Origin: Pontibacillus sp. HMF3514
GTDB lineage: Bacteria; Bacillota; Bacilli; Bacillales; BH030062
DNA: 64,000 nt
Direction of reading: 5' to 3'
Assembly (NCBI RefSeq): GCF_009858175.1
Contig: NZ_CP047393.1
Coordinates: forward strand, 682,001-746,000
The position numbers were made by a program, and so were the translations under genes. Under the pieces are notes generated by a model, which searched no databases, had not been told where the DNA came from, and was given only the letters and a program-made list of their open reading frames with translations. Shown in pieces: positions 52,030-56,931 of this stretch. Every line of letters begins with the position of its first letter. Position 1 is the first letter of the stretch.

Positions 52030-52598
52030 TTAAGCCCCCTTATGTGGAAGACTGGGTATAGAGATAAGGTGCGTATGGTTCCGTTGCTTTTATGGAGTGC
52101 GGCGGGCTGGGAAACGGGCTGCTTTCCCCGGACGAACGATCGAGCCTCCTCATACGCTACGCTTCTTGCGGGGTCTCGCTCGCCCGTTTTTCCGGAGGAG
52201 TCAGCCCGTTTTCCCAGCCCACCTTAGCCGTAATGAGATTAACGGAACCGCAGCGTAATAAGTGTTTCTGTTTGGTTGCACCTTAACAAGATAGAAGAGG
52301 GTTAGAATCCTGGATAAAGCGTTTTTATGGCATTTCTGATCTACATATAATACTTTTGATGCGCTAGAAGATCAACTAATTAGAGCTGGGGTCGTTAACC
52401 TACATTCCAATGGGGGGGAAGGAAACGGCAAACTCCCGCGGTAGAAAGGGCGGCCGAGACCCCGCAAGGAGCGTAGCGGATGAGAAGGCTTGGACGGTCT
52501 TCCGCAGGAGTATTGCCGTTTCAATGACCCCCACGCCTCACAAACGCAACGAACCCACCATCTCACTCAGAAGCTTATTCCAGATTACTGCCATTTAA
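52030..52598. repeat. Composite palindromic repeat element, copy 2 (inverted)
   Basis: About 570 bp. From the left: end B (52030-52053), core homologous to core 1 (52076-52249, GGTTCCGTT...AACGGAACC), a spacer, core homologous to core 2 (52422-52522, exactly 101 bp as in copy 1), then end A inverted (52575-52598, 23/24 identical to 43539-43562). Because the two cores are inverted relatives of each other, the whole element reads as copy 1 in reverse orientation. No terminal target duplication was recognised. Open frames at 52042-52598 are chance. Confidence 0.8.
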
Positions 52599-52718: not shown

Positions 52719-52747
52719 TTGACGTAAGATTTTGAAAATTATATAAT
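52719..52747 (+). promoter_or_regulatory. Strong SigA promoter of the bmr leader
   Basis: TTGACG (52719-52724), exactly 17-bp spacer, TATAAT (52742-52747): 11 of 12 consensus bases, the best promoter in the window. Confidence 0.85.
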
Positions 52748-52782
52748 CGAATCATTCACTATTGAGAGGAGGTCACGTTAAA

Positions 52783-52866
52783 ATGAAAAACTTTGTAGAG
52801 AACCGTTTGATTGCCATGAACTCTATATCGGTCGTGATCTCCAATCGTTTTCCTTTCTCTGTCTAG
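52783..52866 (+). CDS. Leader peptide of the bmrCD operon (BmrB-like)
   Basis: Twenty-seven codons: MKNFVENRLIAMNSI, then SVVISNRFPFSV and TAG. GAGGAGG lies 10 bases before ATG 52783, so it should be translated well. It sits between a strong promoter and two terminators, upstream of bmrC. In B. subtilis the yheJ (bmrB) leader controls bmrCD by ribosome-mediated attenuation (established); the same role is inferred here. Codons 17-19 (GTCGTGA, 52831-52837) can pair with the 5' arm of terminator 1. No peptide identity to B. subtilis BmrB is claimed. Confidence 0.7.
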   Translation: MKNFVENRLIAMNSISVVISNRFPFSV

Positions 52867-52898
52867 AAATATCTATGACATGTTCATAAGGGATTAGT

Positions 52899-52926
52899 GT
52901 CACGACATTCGTTCGTGACCTTTTTT
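52899..52926 (+). terminator. Attenuator terminator 1 of bmrCD
   Basis: GTCACGA (52899-52905) pairs with TCGTGAC (52913-52919), then a T-run to 52926. The 5' arm is alternatively complementary to leader codons 17-19. Confidence 0.75.
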
Positions 52927-52937
52927 GTGTGTACACA

Positions 52938-52968
52938 ACACATACGTCTCGGGCGTATGTGTTTTTTT
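52938..52968 (+). terminator. Attenuator terminator 2 of bmrCD
   Basis: ACACATACG (52938-52946) pairs with CGTATGTGT (52954-52962), then T7: a second, stronger terminator 39 bases after the first. A dyad GTGTGTACACAAC just upstream may extend the structure. Confidence 0.8.
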
Positions 52969-53043
52969 ATGCCTTTTATTAGGTTGTTCTAGCTTCTTTT
53001 GGAGCTATTGCAATAAATTAATATTTTTAAGGAGGAGAATGGT

Positions 53044-53100
53044 GTGAGTTACTTAGCAGAAATGAAGATTTTAAATGATTGGAAGGCAGAAGGCGGATAG
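53044..53100 (+). CDS. Second small ORF upstream of bmrC (18 aa)
   Basis: GTG 53044, MSYLAEMKILNDWKAEGG, TAG at 53098-53100, behind AAGGAGGAG (53029-53037). The ribosome site is near perfect, which is unusual for chance. An ATG at 53039 gives only MV. It lies after both terminators, 46 bases before bmrC, and could be a second regulatory peptide or a shortened relict. Confidence 0.45.
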   Translation: MSYLAEMKILNDWKAEGG

Positions 53101-53146
53101 TTAAATCAAACTAAACAATTTTATAGTGAAGAGCAGGTGAACGATT

Positions 53147-54895
53147 ATGTTTTCAGTTTTAGGTAAATTACAGTGGTTTTTTAGAGATTATTGGCTTCGA
53201 TATTCAGTAGCGATTTTTCTGCTAATTATTGTAGCCGGGATAGATATCATTCCTCCGAAGCTTATTGGATCGGCGATTGATGCTATCCAGTTTGAAACGT
53301 TAACGAGAGCTAAGTTAACAGAGTTATTACTATGGTATGGATTAATTATTGTATCGAGTTACGCTATTTCTTACGTGTGGGCTTACTTATTATTCGGAGG
53401 GGCCTTTACACTTGAACGTAAAATGCGCTCAAGATTAATGCAGCATTTTCTATCGATGACATCTTCATTTTTCGGGAAGTATCGTACAGGTGACTTAATG
53501 GCTCGCGCGACGAATGATTTAAAAGCGATCTCCATGACAACAGGGTTCGGGATCTTAACACTTGTGGATGCTACTTTTTTCATGTTGATGATTATAGGCG
53601 TTATGATCGTAACAATCAGCTGGAAGCTAACATTAGCAGCGCTTATCCCTTTACCTGTTATGGCGCTTATCATGAACCGGTACGGTAAAACGATACATGA
53701 GCGGTTTACAAAGGCTCAGGATGCTTTTGGCGATATGAATGATGATGTACTGGAATCCATCCGAGGGGTTCGCGTACTGCGAGCTTTTGTTCAAGAAAAG
53801 CAAGATGAAAATCGTTTTGGCGATATGACACAAGACGTATATGAAAAGAACGTCGAAGTAGCCAAAATTGATGCCATGTTTGAGCCGACTATCAAAGTGC
53901 TTGTTGGTCTTTCCTACACGATTGGATTAGGATATGGTGCCCATCTTGTATTCCAAAATACGATCACGCTAGGTCAGCTCGTTTCCTTTAACGTGTACTT
54001 AGGGATGCTCATTTGGCCGATGTTTGCCGTAGGTGAGTTGATTAACGTGATGCAACGTGGTAACGCTTCTCTTGATCGTGTGAATGAAACATTGAGCTAT
54101 GAAGCGGAAGTGAAGGATCCGTTACAACCGAAATCTGTTCCTTTACCAAAAACCATTGTGTTTGATGATGTGACATTCCAATATCCTGATACGGAACGTC
54201 CACAGTTACAAGGTATAAAACTGGATGTGGAACGTGGCCACACGATTGGAGTTGTTGGAAAAACGGGAGCAGGTAAGACGACTTTATTTAAGCAGTTGCT
54301 CCGAGAATACGCTGGCATGAAAGGAAACCTTACGATATCTGGTGCATCCATTCATGACCTAACACTAGAAGACACAAGAGGGTGGATTGGATACGTACCT
54401 CAGGATCAAATTTTATTTTCTAAGACGGTACGTGAAAACATTCAGTTTGGCCATGATGACGCTTCTGATAAAGAAATTGGCCGAATTCTAGAATTAGCTC
54501 ATTTAAAAGATGATATCGATAATCTTCCGAATGGATTAGATACCAAGGTTGGAGAGAGTGGAGTCACCCTTTCAGGAGGTCAGAAGCAACGTGTTTCTTT
54601 AGCTCGAGCGCTTATTATGGATCCGGAAATTTTAATTTTGGATGATTCAATGTCTGCTGTTGATGGCAAAACGGAAGCGAACATTATTAAGCACTTAAAA
54701 GCTGAGCGACAGGATAAAACCACACTTATTTCAGCCCATCGCTTATCAGCCGTCCAACATGCTGATCAAATTATCGTTTTAGAGGACGGTGAAATTGTAG
54801 AGCGTGGAACACATGATCAACTGATGAAAAAAGGTGCTTGGTACGCCGAGCAATTTACCAAACAGCAAATGGAATCTGAAAGGGGGAATGCGTAA
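53147..54895 (+). CDS. bmrC: Heterodimeric multidrug ABC exporter subunit BmrC (degenerate NBD)
   Basis: 582 aa against ~585 for B. subtilis BmrC/YheI. Six helices in the N-terminal ~320 residues, then NBD with Walker A VVGKTGAGKTTLFK (K377), signature TLSGGQKQRVSLARAL and Walker B ILILDDSMSAVD, where Asp500 replaces the catalytic Glu: the degenerate ATP site known in this heterodimer class. Exports drugs together with BmrD. AGGTGA precedes ATG 53147. Overlaps bmrD by one base (TAATG). Confidence 0.92.
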   Translation: MFSVLGKLQWFFRDYWLRYSVAIFLLIIVAGIDIIPPKLIGSAIDAIQFETLTRAKLTELLLWYGLIIVSSYAISYVWAYLLFGGAFTLERKMRSRLMQHFLSMTSSFFGKYRTGDLMARATNDLKAISMTTGFGILTLVDATFFMLMIIGVMIVTISWKLTLAALIPLPVMALIMNRYGKTIHERFTKAQDAFGDMNDDVLESIRGVRVLRAFVQEKQDENRFGDMTQDVYEKNVEVAKIDAMFEPTIKVLVGLSYTIGLGYGAHLVFQNTITLGQLVSFNVYLGMLIWPMFAVGELINVMQRGNASLDRVNETLSYEAEVKDPLQPKSVPLPKTIVFDDVTFQYPDTERPQLQGIKLDVERGHTIGVVGKTGAGKTTLFKQLLREYAGMKGNLTISGASIHDLTLEDTRGWIGYVPQDQILFSKTVRENIQFGHDDASDKEIGRILELAHLKDDIDNLPNGLDTKVGESGVTLSGGQKQRVSLARALIMDPEILILDDSMSAVDGKTEANIIKHLKAERQDKTTLISAHRLSAVQHADQIIVLEDGEIVERGTHDQLMKKGAWYAEQFTKQQMESERGNA

Positions 54896-56931
54896 TGAGT
54901 AAGCCGTCAACGGAAAAACGCCTCCTTCAGTATGCTTTATCTTTTAAGAAGACGATAATTATTGGGTTAATCTGCTTAACCATAGCCGTGGCGCTAGAGT
55001 TAACAGGTCCATTTATTGCGAAACGACTCATTGATGAACACATTTTGGGAATTGAAACGACTTGGTATCAGGTCCAGCAAAATGATGATGAGCACACAGT
55101 TGCTTATAACGATGGATTTTATAAGCGCAGCGATAGGATTGAGCCAGATGATACGACTTCTAGTAAGGCTACGATTTTGCAATCTGGTAAATCGTATTAC
55201 TTTATAGCAGAAGAGGTTCCGACCACTGGAAAGAAATCATTTGAAGGCGGGACTTTTACCATTGAATCTCCAGATGGGACGATCACAGCTCCTGCAGAGA
55301 AATTAGAGTTAAATGAGCTTTATGGTTTTTTTAAGCCGGAAACGAGCTCGATTATATGGTTACTGGTCTTGTATGTAGTCTTACTTTTGATTGCCGCAGT
55401 CTTTCAATATAACCAAACCTATCTTTTACAGATGTCTTCAAATAAGATTATTAAAAAGATGCGTACAGATGTCTTCGCGCATATTCAACGAGTGCCAGTT
55501 GATTATTTTATCAATCGACCGGCAGGGAAAATTGTAGCCCGTGTGACGAATGATACGGAAGCCATTCGTGAGTTGTATGAACGTGTGCTTGCGACATTTA
55601 TGACAAGTGCGATTTATATGACAGGGATTTATGTAGCGCTATTCTTGCTGAATCCGAAACTGGCAGCGATCTGTTTATTACTCATCCCGATCATGGCTGT
55701 CTGGATGAAGCTATATAAGATTTACGCAGGAAAATATAATGAAGTAATTCGTTCAACCATAAGTGATTTAAACGGGAATATTAATGAAGCCATTCAAGGC
55801 ATGCCGATTATTCAAGCTTTCCGCAGACAAAAACAAACAACGGAGGAGTTTGAAGAGATGAATGAGCGCCACTTTACCTACCAAAGCAAGTTGTTAAAGC
55901 TAAACTCATTAACTTCTTTTAACCTAGTTAATGTCGTACGGAACTTAGCATTTGTTGCTTTCATTTGGTACTTTGGCGGTGCATCTCTTGGTGTAGGTAC
56001 GATTGTTACAGTGGGTGTGCTTTATGCATTTGTTGACTATTTGAACCGATTGTTCCAGCCTGTCATTGACGTAGTAAACCAGCTCGCTCAGCTAGAGCAA
56101 GCTAGGGTTGCAGCAGGCCGAGTGTTTGAGCTCATGGATCATGAAGGGGAAGAAGTAAACAATACCTCGATCAATCGTTATAAAGGGAACATTCAGTTTG
56201 ATGATGTATCTTTTGCCTACGAGGAAGATGAATATGTTTTGAAAAACATTTCTTTTAAGGCAAATGAAGGGGAGACCGTAGCCTTTGTTGGCCATACCGG
56301 GTCTGGTAAAAGCTCGATCATGAACCTGTTGTTCCGGTTCTATGACCCACAAAAAGGGAAGATTACGATTGATGGTATGGATACGACATCCTTATCGCGT
56401 CAACAAGTGAGAAGTCATATGGGGATTGTACTGCAGGATCCATTTATTTTTACTGGGACGATCATCTCGAATGTGACGATGGGAGATCCGAATATTTCCC
56501 GTGAACGAGCGATCAAAGCGCTTAAAGAAGTAGGAGCGGATCGTTTTATTGAGAAGCTTCCTTATCAGTACGATGAACCTGTAAAAGAGAAAGGGAGTAC
56601 CTTTTCTGCAGGTGAGCGTCAGTTAATCTCCTTTGCAAGAGCACTTGCTTTCGATCCAGCGATTTTGATTTTGGATGAAGCAACTGCGAATATTGATACG
56701 GAAACAGAAGCGATCATCCAGAATGCTTTACAAGTGTTGAAAAAAGGAAGAACAACGCTTGTGATTGCGCACCGACTATCTACTATTCAGCAGGCAGATC
56801 AAATTTTTGTCTTGGATCACGGTCGCATTCTAGAACAAGGAAAACACGAAGAATTGCTTGCTGTGGAAGGGATCTATTACCAAATGTATCTCATGCAGCA
56901 GGGAGGACTGGAAGAAGTCGCGATTTCGTAG
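54895..56931 (+). CDS. bmrD: Heterodimeric multidrug ABC exporter subunit BmrD (catalytic NBD)
   Basis: 678 aa against ~673 for B. subtilis BmrD/YheH. A ~100-residue extracytoplasmic domain (~50-150) is inserted between TM1 and TM2, a BmrD hallmark. NBD: Walker A HTGSGKSSIMNLLFRFYDP, signature FSAGERQLISFARAL (degenerate LSGGQ), Walker B ILILDEATANID with catalytic Glu595. The complementary degeneracy with BmrC fits one consensus and one degenerate ATP site. Terminator follows. Confidence 0.92.
   Translation: MSKPSTEKRLLQYALSFKKTIIIGLICLTIAVALELTGPFIAKRLIDEHILGIETTWYQVQQNDDEHTVAYNDGFYKRSDRIEPDDTTSSKATILQSGKSYYFIAEEVPTTGKKSFEGGTFTIESPDGTITAPAEKLELNELYGFFKPETSSIIWLLVLYVVLLLIAAVFQYNQTYLLQMSSNKIIKKMRTDVFAHIQRVPVDYFINRPAGKIVARVTNDTEAIRELYERVLATFMTSAIYMTGIYVALFLLNPKLAAICLLLIPIMAVWMKLYKIYAGKYNEVIRSTISDLNGNINEAIQGMPIIQAFRRQKQTTEEFEEMNERHFTYQSKLLKLNSLTSFNLVNVVRNLAFVAFIWYFGGASLGVGTIVTVGVLYAFVDYLNRLFQPVIDVVNQLAQLEQARVAAGRVFELMDHEGEEVNNTSINRYKGNIQFDDVSFAYEEDEYVLKNISFKANEGETVAFVGHTGSGKSSIMNLLFRFYDPQKGKITIDGMDTTSLSRQQVRSHMGIVLQDPFIFTGTIISNVTMGDPNISRERAIKALKEVGADRFIEKLPYQYDEPVKEKGSTFSAGERQLISFARALAFDPAILILDEATANIDTETEAIIQNALQVLKKGRTTLVIAHRLSTIQQADQIFVLDHGRILEQGKHEELLAVEGIYYQMYLMQQGGLEEVAIS

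Follow-up and report, generated by a model that had tools for sequence, protein, structure and literature searches.

The window analysed here is a stretch of 64,000 nucleotides from the chromosome of Pontibacillus sp. HMF3514 (contig NZ_CP047393.1, positions 682,001 to 746,000 of the forward strand), and it carries on its plus strand the drug-efflux operon bmrCD. The first gene, bmrC (53147-54895), encodes a half-transporter that is orthologous to B. subtilis YheI/BmrC (E ~1e-228 against the YheI chains) and 98% identical to its counterpart on a P. marinus contig. The second gene, bmrD (54895-56931), the start of which overlaps the end of bmrC by 1 base, was assigned as the partner half-transporter by its position and its membership of the ABC family. 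Our subject is the 428 bases ahead of bmrC (52719-53146): we regard the chances as roughly even that they form a two-leader control region of the efflux operon, in which a first leader acts as a start-stall attenuator and a second as a slow-termination site. None of 4227 Rfam models matched anywhere in the window at its gathering score, and none matched between 52600 and 53200 even at E up to 1.

The region, all of it read on the plus strand, opens with a promoter (TTGACG and TATAAT with a 17-nt spacer, 52719-52747) that agrees with the consensus at 11 of 12 positions. Its -10 box and spacer are kept in relatives, and TTGAC recurs at the -35 box in four of the five other relatives reaching that far (the exception is L008); promoter-like sites with at least 9/12 matches are not rarer than expected by chance (3 found vs 3.5 expected). 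Leader open reading frame (ORF) 1 follows (52783-52866), with 27 codons specifying MKNFVENRLIAMNSISVVISNRFPFSV, in the position of B. subtilis bmrB. Its Shine-Dalgarno (SD) sequence is overlapped by segment 1 (GGAGGTCACG, 52768-52777), its codons 17-20 contain segment 2 (GTCGTGATCTCC, 52831-52842), and beyond its end stands terminator 1, made up of segments 3 and 4 (52899-52919) with a T-run behind. The window shows a hallmark of bmrB-type attenuators, an SD-led leader ORF with an intrinsic terminator after it. Each of the first two segments has two possible partners. Segment 1 can pair with CGTGATCTCC at 52833-52842 (the 1:2 helix, 10 bp, p=0.01 against shuffled leaders) or with the 3' arm of terminator 1, and segment 2 can pair with segment 1 or with segment 3, the latter through the 2:3 helix GTCGTGAT/GTCACGAC (8 pairs, one G-U among them, p=0.025 against shuffled leaders). 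The duplex energies in the window are -15.7 kcal/mol for 1:2, -10.5 for 2:3, -10.4 for 3:4 and -16.5 for 1:4. Judged by these elements, leader 1 is a four-segment, trp-like attenuator.

Much of this had been described in an earlier sequence-only reading of the same DNA. The promoter, the leader ORF, GTCGTGA at 52831-52837, TCACGAC at 52900-52906, both terminators and the start of bmrC all lie where that reading placed them, and its helix between the leader and the 5' arm of the terminator is the 2:3 helix given above. What it overlooked are the 10-bp helix involving the SD region (52768-52777/52833-52842) and a second ORF at 53044-53100. Within leader ORF 1 itself, an IAMN motif at codons 10-13 (52810-52821) is kept in several Pontibacillus relatives, and in related genera NFI stands just before segment 2.

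The wider comparison covers the regions upstream of bmrC orthologues at 149 loci from 33 families and 60 genera. These loci are places among the matches listed, bmrC having matched in 202 of 299 genomes with only the best places considered; 20 loci that partly came from the same species (L031-L050) were left out of the counts, and two with doubtful bmrC starts (L092 and L196) were retained. A rule recognised leader ORF 1 and terminator 1 in 145 of the 149 loci, and for each of them real leaders were compared with shuffled ones to obtain helix p values, the family medians of which were then combined over 32 families. The helices are conserved across these relatives: over the 32 families the combined family-median p is 2e-11 for 1:2 and 2e-13 for 2:3. 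Of the 145 single loci, 71 pass p<0.05 for the 1:2 helix, 83 pass for the 2:3 helix and 42 pass for both, and the family median falls below 0.05 in 15 of 32 families for 1:2 and in 13 for 2:3. The arms vary and still pair, with 26 distinct 1:2 pairs across 27 genera and 29 distinct 2:3 pairs across 30 genera, counting genera picked because the helix is present. As the two helices are conserved across families, the attenuator principle of leader 1 is, by this sequence comparison, widespread, though many families fail singly.

Two kinds of folding calculation bear on where a ribosome would have to stand for leader 1 to respond. The co-transcriptional calculation poses a narrower question than an equilibrium fold: it takes the nascent RNA at a stage when terminator 1 still lacks its 3' arm and places a 30-nt ribosome footprint on each codon. 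In the window, the probability of the 2:3 helix, P(2:3), is 0.00 without a ribosome, rises to 0.94, 0.97, 0.83 and 0.29 with a ribosome on codons 1, 2, 3 and 4, respectively, and is at most 0.06 from codon 5 on. Across the 83 loci, preselected for a significant 2:3 helix, mean P(2:3) is 0.30 without a ribosome, 0.93 at the best early position (0.53 as the early mean) and 0.07 with a ribosome on or after segment 2. Since P(2:3) in the window is high only on codons 1-3, and weakly so on codon 4, only ribosomes on the first codons should give read-through. We therefore predict from the folding model that read-through is set off by ribosomes at or just past the start codon, which is close to the behaviour of the vmlR leader of B. 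subtilis. For the sequence-only reading, which had placed the stall anywhere upstream of codon 17, this means that attenuation stands and the position narrows to the first codons.

Several observations count against this view of leader 1. Taken singly, the families with a median p of at least 0.05 are 17 of 32 for the 1:2 helix and 19 of 32 for the 2:3 helix. At equilibrium, folding the window's RNA through terminator 1 gives a terminator probability, P(T1), of 0.75 without a ribosome; early stalls leave it near 0.8 at most positions (0.44 on codon 2), and it falls to 0.00-0.09 when the ribosome sits on codons 14-25, apparently because segment 1 is then free to pair with segment 4. Over the 145 loci the equilibrium P(T1) is 0.95 without a ribosome, 0.90 with an early stall and 0.94 near the leader's end, a shift that agrees with expectation at 74% of loci (p=4e-9) but is small. 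The mutually exclusive antiterminator and anti-antiterminator expected of a bmrB-type leader are present by sequence and by folding during transcription, with no support from the equilibrium fold in the window. As the equilibrium fold contradicts the model there, the model of leader 1 depends on the order of folding during transcription.

Under that model, when no ribosome is on leader 1, the 1:2 helix would form and leave segment 3 free for terminator 1, and a ribosome translating through the leader would cover segment 2, again allowing terminator 1 to form. A drug acting on the 50S subunit would hold the ribosome on the first codons, covering segment 1; the 2:3 helix would then form and RNA polymerase would read through. 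The closest known system is the bmrB (yheJ) attenuator of B. subtilis bmrCD, to which the sequence-only reading had rightly pointed (Reilman et al. 2014, PMC4191407). There, lincomycin-induced read-through requires both the terminator and translation of the leader, and read-through also occurs with chloramphenicol and erythromycin (PMC4191407); a drug response of leader 1 in Pontibacillus would follow by analogy. The two systems share an orthologous operon, a translated leader ORF and the alternation of terminator, antiterminator and anti-antiterminator (PMC4191407). They differ in that the 53-codon bmrB leader contains its terminator, whereas the 27-codon leader here ends before terminator 1, and in that neither a second leader ORF nor a second terminator appears in the accessible part of the B. 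subtilis account (PMC4191407), both being present here. Leader 1 is a new member of the known bmrB kind of attenuator. Antibiotic-responsive, ribosome-mediated attenuation of bmrCD is supported here by homology to the B. subtilis system and by the conserved alternative helices.

Two further leaders resemble leader 1 as modelled here. In the vmlR leader of B. subtilis (PMC9226507), a ribosome stalled at the start blocks the anti-antiterminator and the terminator is avoided; vmlR has features of its own, namely a three-codon upstream ORF (uORF), a hairpin hiding the SD of vmlR and a dependence on (p)ppGpp, and no second leader is seen in the accessible part of that paper. The toiL uORF of topAI in E. 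coli (PMC12121999) likewise senses several classes of ribosome-targeting drugs, start-codon stalls included, but its action is to uncover the SD of topAI, with Rho involved, and the accessible part of that paper describes one uORF.

Beyond terminator 1 stands terminator 2 (52937-52963), with a 12-bp stem and a T-run, which would pose a second barrier to transcription. Shuffled sequences lead one to expect 0.4 terminators in the kilobase, vs the 2 found. The sequence-only reading had presented two terminators in series as a trait of this leader; they are indeed there, but the trait is hardly peculiar to this genome. At 110 of the 145 loci a second terminator stands no more than 150 nt behind the first (median gap 19 nt), and tandem terminators are therefore the usual layout. 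No switch acting on terminator 2 was found in this window, the window's own pair being absent among the rows listed at p<0.1. Among relatives, pairing of terminator 2 with the 3' arm freed from terminator 1 reaches p<0.05 at 26 loci out of 110 and in 5 of 29 families (Fisher 0.001), which offers a weak lead towards a possible switch through that arm. A further copy of GTCACG is often present on the loop side of terminator 2 (in L032, L085, L091, L099 and others, the window being without it), and this copy could pair with the same freed arm. By eye, a small hairpin with an ATAAAT-like A+T stretch behind it lies within 52970-53030, and at the same place in relatives, before the SD of the second leader; it is possibly a pause or processing site. 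In the P. marinus-like locus L002, about 90 extra bases separate terminator 2 from the second leader, and both leaders are intact.

The second leader, ORF 2, lies between terminator 2 and bmrC (53044-53100): 18 codons with a GTG start, reading MSYLAEMKILNDWKAEGG-TAG, led by the SD AAGGAGG at 53029-53035. In relatives it was sought as the best SD-led short ORF with its stop 8-70 nt before bmrC, the ending being ignored by the rule, and the identical rule was applied to six other upstream slots, leader ORF 1 included, as a control (189 ORFs). An SD-led ORF occupies the ORF 2 slot at 126 of the 149 loci. The last residue is Gly in 113/126 and the stop codon TAG in 104/126, vs 7/189 and 34/189 in the control slots (Fisher p of 7e-61 and 6e-31, values that are nominal, the loci being related) and 3/45 and 7/45 among long ORFs taken from the window. 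In 95 of the 126 the peptide closes with EGG, ESG, DGG, DSG or DDG. Gly-ended forms of ORF 2 turn up, at one locus or more, in 28 of the 33 families and 46 of the 60 genera; the strict form [ED][GSD]G-TAG is found at 82 of 149 loci, in 23 families and 36 genera. All four Gly codons are in use, and Ser is drawn from both of its codon boxes (TCN twice). The length is 17-20 codons in 101 of the 113 Gly-ended loci. Pooled within families, the ratio of nonsynonymous to synonymous polymorphism (pN/pS) is 0.45 in the body but drops to 0.21 over the last three codons. In the light of these comparisons, the data indicate translation of ORF 2, with selection acting on its end both as protein and as stop codon.

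The exceptions to this pattern must be weighed against it. Among the 149 loci, five families (f5, f24, f35, f40 and f41) are without a Gly-ended ORF 2, one (f21) has it in 1 of 11 loci, and in another (f46) ORF 2 ends in LFG-TAG. Outside the order, ORF 2 was found among 36 loci in a single family, f49, where it is present in 9 of 10 loci, six ending in Gly and three in EGD. The remaining 26 loci, from seven families (f48, f50, f53, f56, f62, f65 and f68), hold one Gly-ended candidate (SNG-TAA with a weak SD, in L329), and the [ED]-x-G-TAG form occurs in none of them, with the bmrC start insecure for L335, L338 and L339. On the other side, a genome of f41 lying outside the 149 (G192) has ESG-TAG before bmrC, and at a further f49 bmrC locus, from a class sample, the entire arrangement can be made out by eye ahead of the gene. 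The f49 locus L278 is unusual in that bmrC lies about 200 nt after leader ORF 2 instead of 20-50.

ORF 2 was also used as a search signature in 249 genomes, with known bmrC places excluded by eye and 37 other matches translated. For 15 loci the downstream gene was tested: it was bmrC in 14 and no bmrC showed in G185. Four matches (G002, G043, G090 and G237 (C3)) are in frame but short or ill-fitting, and the class sample added two other in-frame matches (L274 and L280). We therefore rejected the idea that ORF 2 marks many other genes, as tested matches almost all precede bmrC. Two matches precede an MFS gene in f32. A search with the leader-1 pattern hit 9 of 249 genomes, six of them at bmrC and two at the MFS gene, the ninth being G233. 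In two f32 genomes of one genus (L216/G039 and L223/G081), the full module, consisting of the SD segment, leader 1, two terminators and a leader 2 ending in DGG-TAG, stands before an MFS transporter instead of bmrC; the other two f32 genomes examined are without this MFS gene. The protein shows a likeness to multidrug and tetracycline efflux families, scoring under their cut-offs. The best BmrC match in G039 is only 48% identical, and the MFS gene frame in G081 is broken by a TGA. Judged by its sequence context, the two-leader module is portable.

What ORF 2 does must be approached through its surroundings. The base after its stop codon is C or T in 100 of the 111 loci examined, bmrC lies 19-56 nt beyond it in the same number of loci, and the bmrC SD begins a median of 21 nt after the stop. 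A ribosome's footprint extends about 11 nt beyond the stop codon; given the distance to the bmrC SD, a paused ribosome would therefore leave that SD free, ending about 10 nt before it. The bmrC SD is not hidden by RNA structure beyond chance: its accessibility is 0.572 vs 0.577 when the sequence between the SDs is shuffled (p=0.90 in a Wilcoxon test on 111 Gly-ended loci, the other two of the 113 having no recognisable SD), and we rejected ORF 2 as a classical translational attenuator on this ground. No terminator was found between ORF 2 and bmrC in a scan of the window. Stop-codon read-through into bmrC was likewise rejected, as the ORF 2 frame runs beyond the start of bmrC at 43 of the 113 Gly-ended loci and is in frame with it at only 3.

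The most likely function of ORF 2 is, in our view, that of a deliberately slow termination site. Release after a C-terminal Gly is reported to be inefficient (PMC7246954, citing Pierson et al. 2016), and genes stalled by apidaecin are enriched in C-terminal Gly (PMC7544508). The read-through RNA would carry ORF 2 as a separately translated leader of about 18 residues, selected for [E/D]-[G/S/D]-G and TAG, and a pause at its stop may tune bmrC translation or protect the read-through mRNA when termination is impaired. Put together, the region would hold two ribosome sensors in series, of which leader 1 responds to initiation holds and licenses transcription, and leader 2, with its [E/D][G/S]G-UAG end, reports slowed termination and licenses bmrC output without an RNA switch. 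We advance this full scheme tentatively, giving it a minority share of our belief.

A plainer account would make ORF 2 a mere translational coupler or mRNA stabiliser, its SD loading ribosomes behind terminator 2 that shield the RNA and feed bmrC, with no sensing role for its end. The strong SD, the closeness of bmrC and the absence of an SD-hiding structure all fit. It leaves unexplained the Gly and TAG preferences, the use of all four Gly codons and the lower pN/pS of the last three codons; such an ending is not needed for plain coupling, yet some third role could need it, a point that tells against slow termination too. We hold the coupler to be fairly unlikely. Alternatively, ORF 2 could be a drug-dependent arrest peptide like ermCL or MsrDL, with a specific ribosome-targeting drug stalling the ribosome at the Gly-stop and turning bmrC on. 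MsrDL, the leader of msrD, arrests at its own stop codon with erythromycin and its last residues matter (PMC10314930), and ORF 2 has conserved C-terminal residues at its stop codon in the same way. The apidaecin arrests, the fairly constant length of ORF 2 and its best-conserved end point in the same direction. MsrDL, however, acts through a terminator, and ermCL through an SD that is hidden; neither was found behind ORF 2, the terminator scan having covered the window. To our knowledge, no drug fits the ORF 2 ending. The MsrDL arrest prevents a terminator and prefers UAA where ORF 2 uses TAG, and its peptide is unrelated (PMC10314930); MsrDL is a parallel to ORF 2 only, not a relative. An arrest peptide thus seems to us unlikely.

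For leader 1, the simple two-state attenuator of the sequence-only reading, in which any stall before codon 17 frees segment 2 and the SD segment has no role, draws on the mutual exclusion of 2:3 and 3:4. It sits poorly with a 1:2 helix that is conserved and, in the window, stronger than 2:3, and with a fold in which, once 1:2 is included, stalls at codons 5-16 leave segment 2 unfreed; we consider it distinctly unlikely. Least probable of all is a role in trans, for example on the pump, for a small protein made from ORF 2, with the C-terminal Gly as its working end: translation and purifying selection would suit it, but the N-terminal part differs among most families (by eye) and the stop-codon identity, unneeded for protein function, is conserved.

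Just upstream of the operon lies a G+C-rich interspersed repeat of 126 bases (52405-52530), present in at least 40 copies in this genome at 83-100% identity (40 candidates scored).

In the open-access literature searched, supplements excluded, leader ORF 2 finds no mention, the accessible parts of PMC4191407, PMC9226507, PMC10219788, PMC10898510, PMC12054373 and PMC8632094 included; nor did this literature, as far as it was accessible, yield a description of a leader that reports slowed termination without an RNA switch. The published induction of bmrCD in B. subtilis rests on one leader peptide (PMC4191407, in its accessible part). A second leader with a fixed Gly-stop, found in many genera and also before an unrelated MFS pump, suggests that two stages of translation are checked before the cost of the pump is met, and its ending offers a searchable signature for leaders of this sort.
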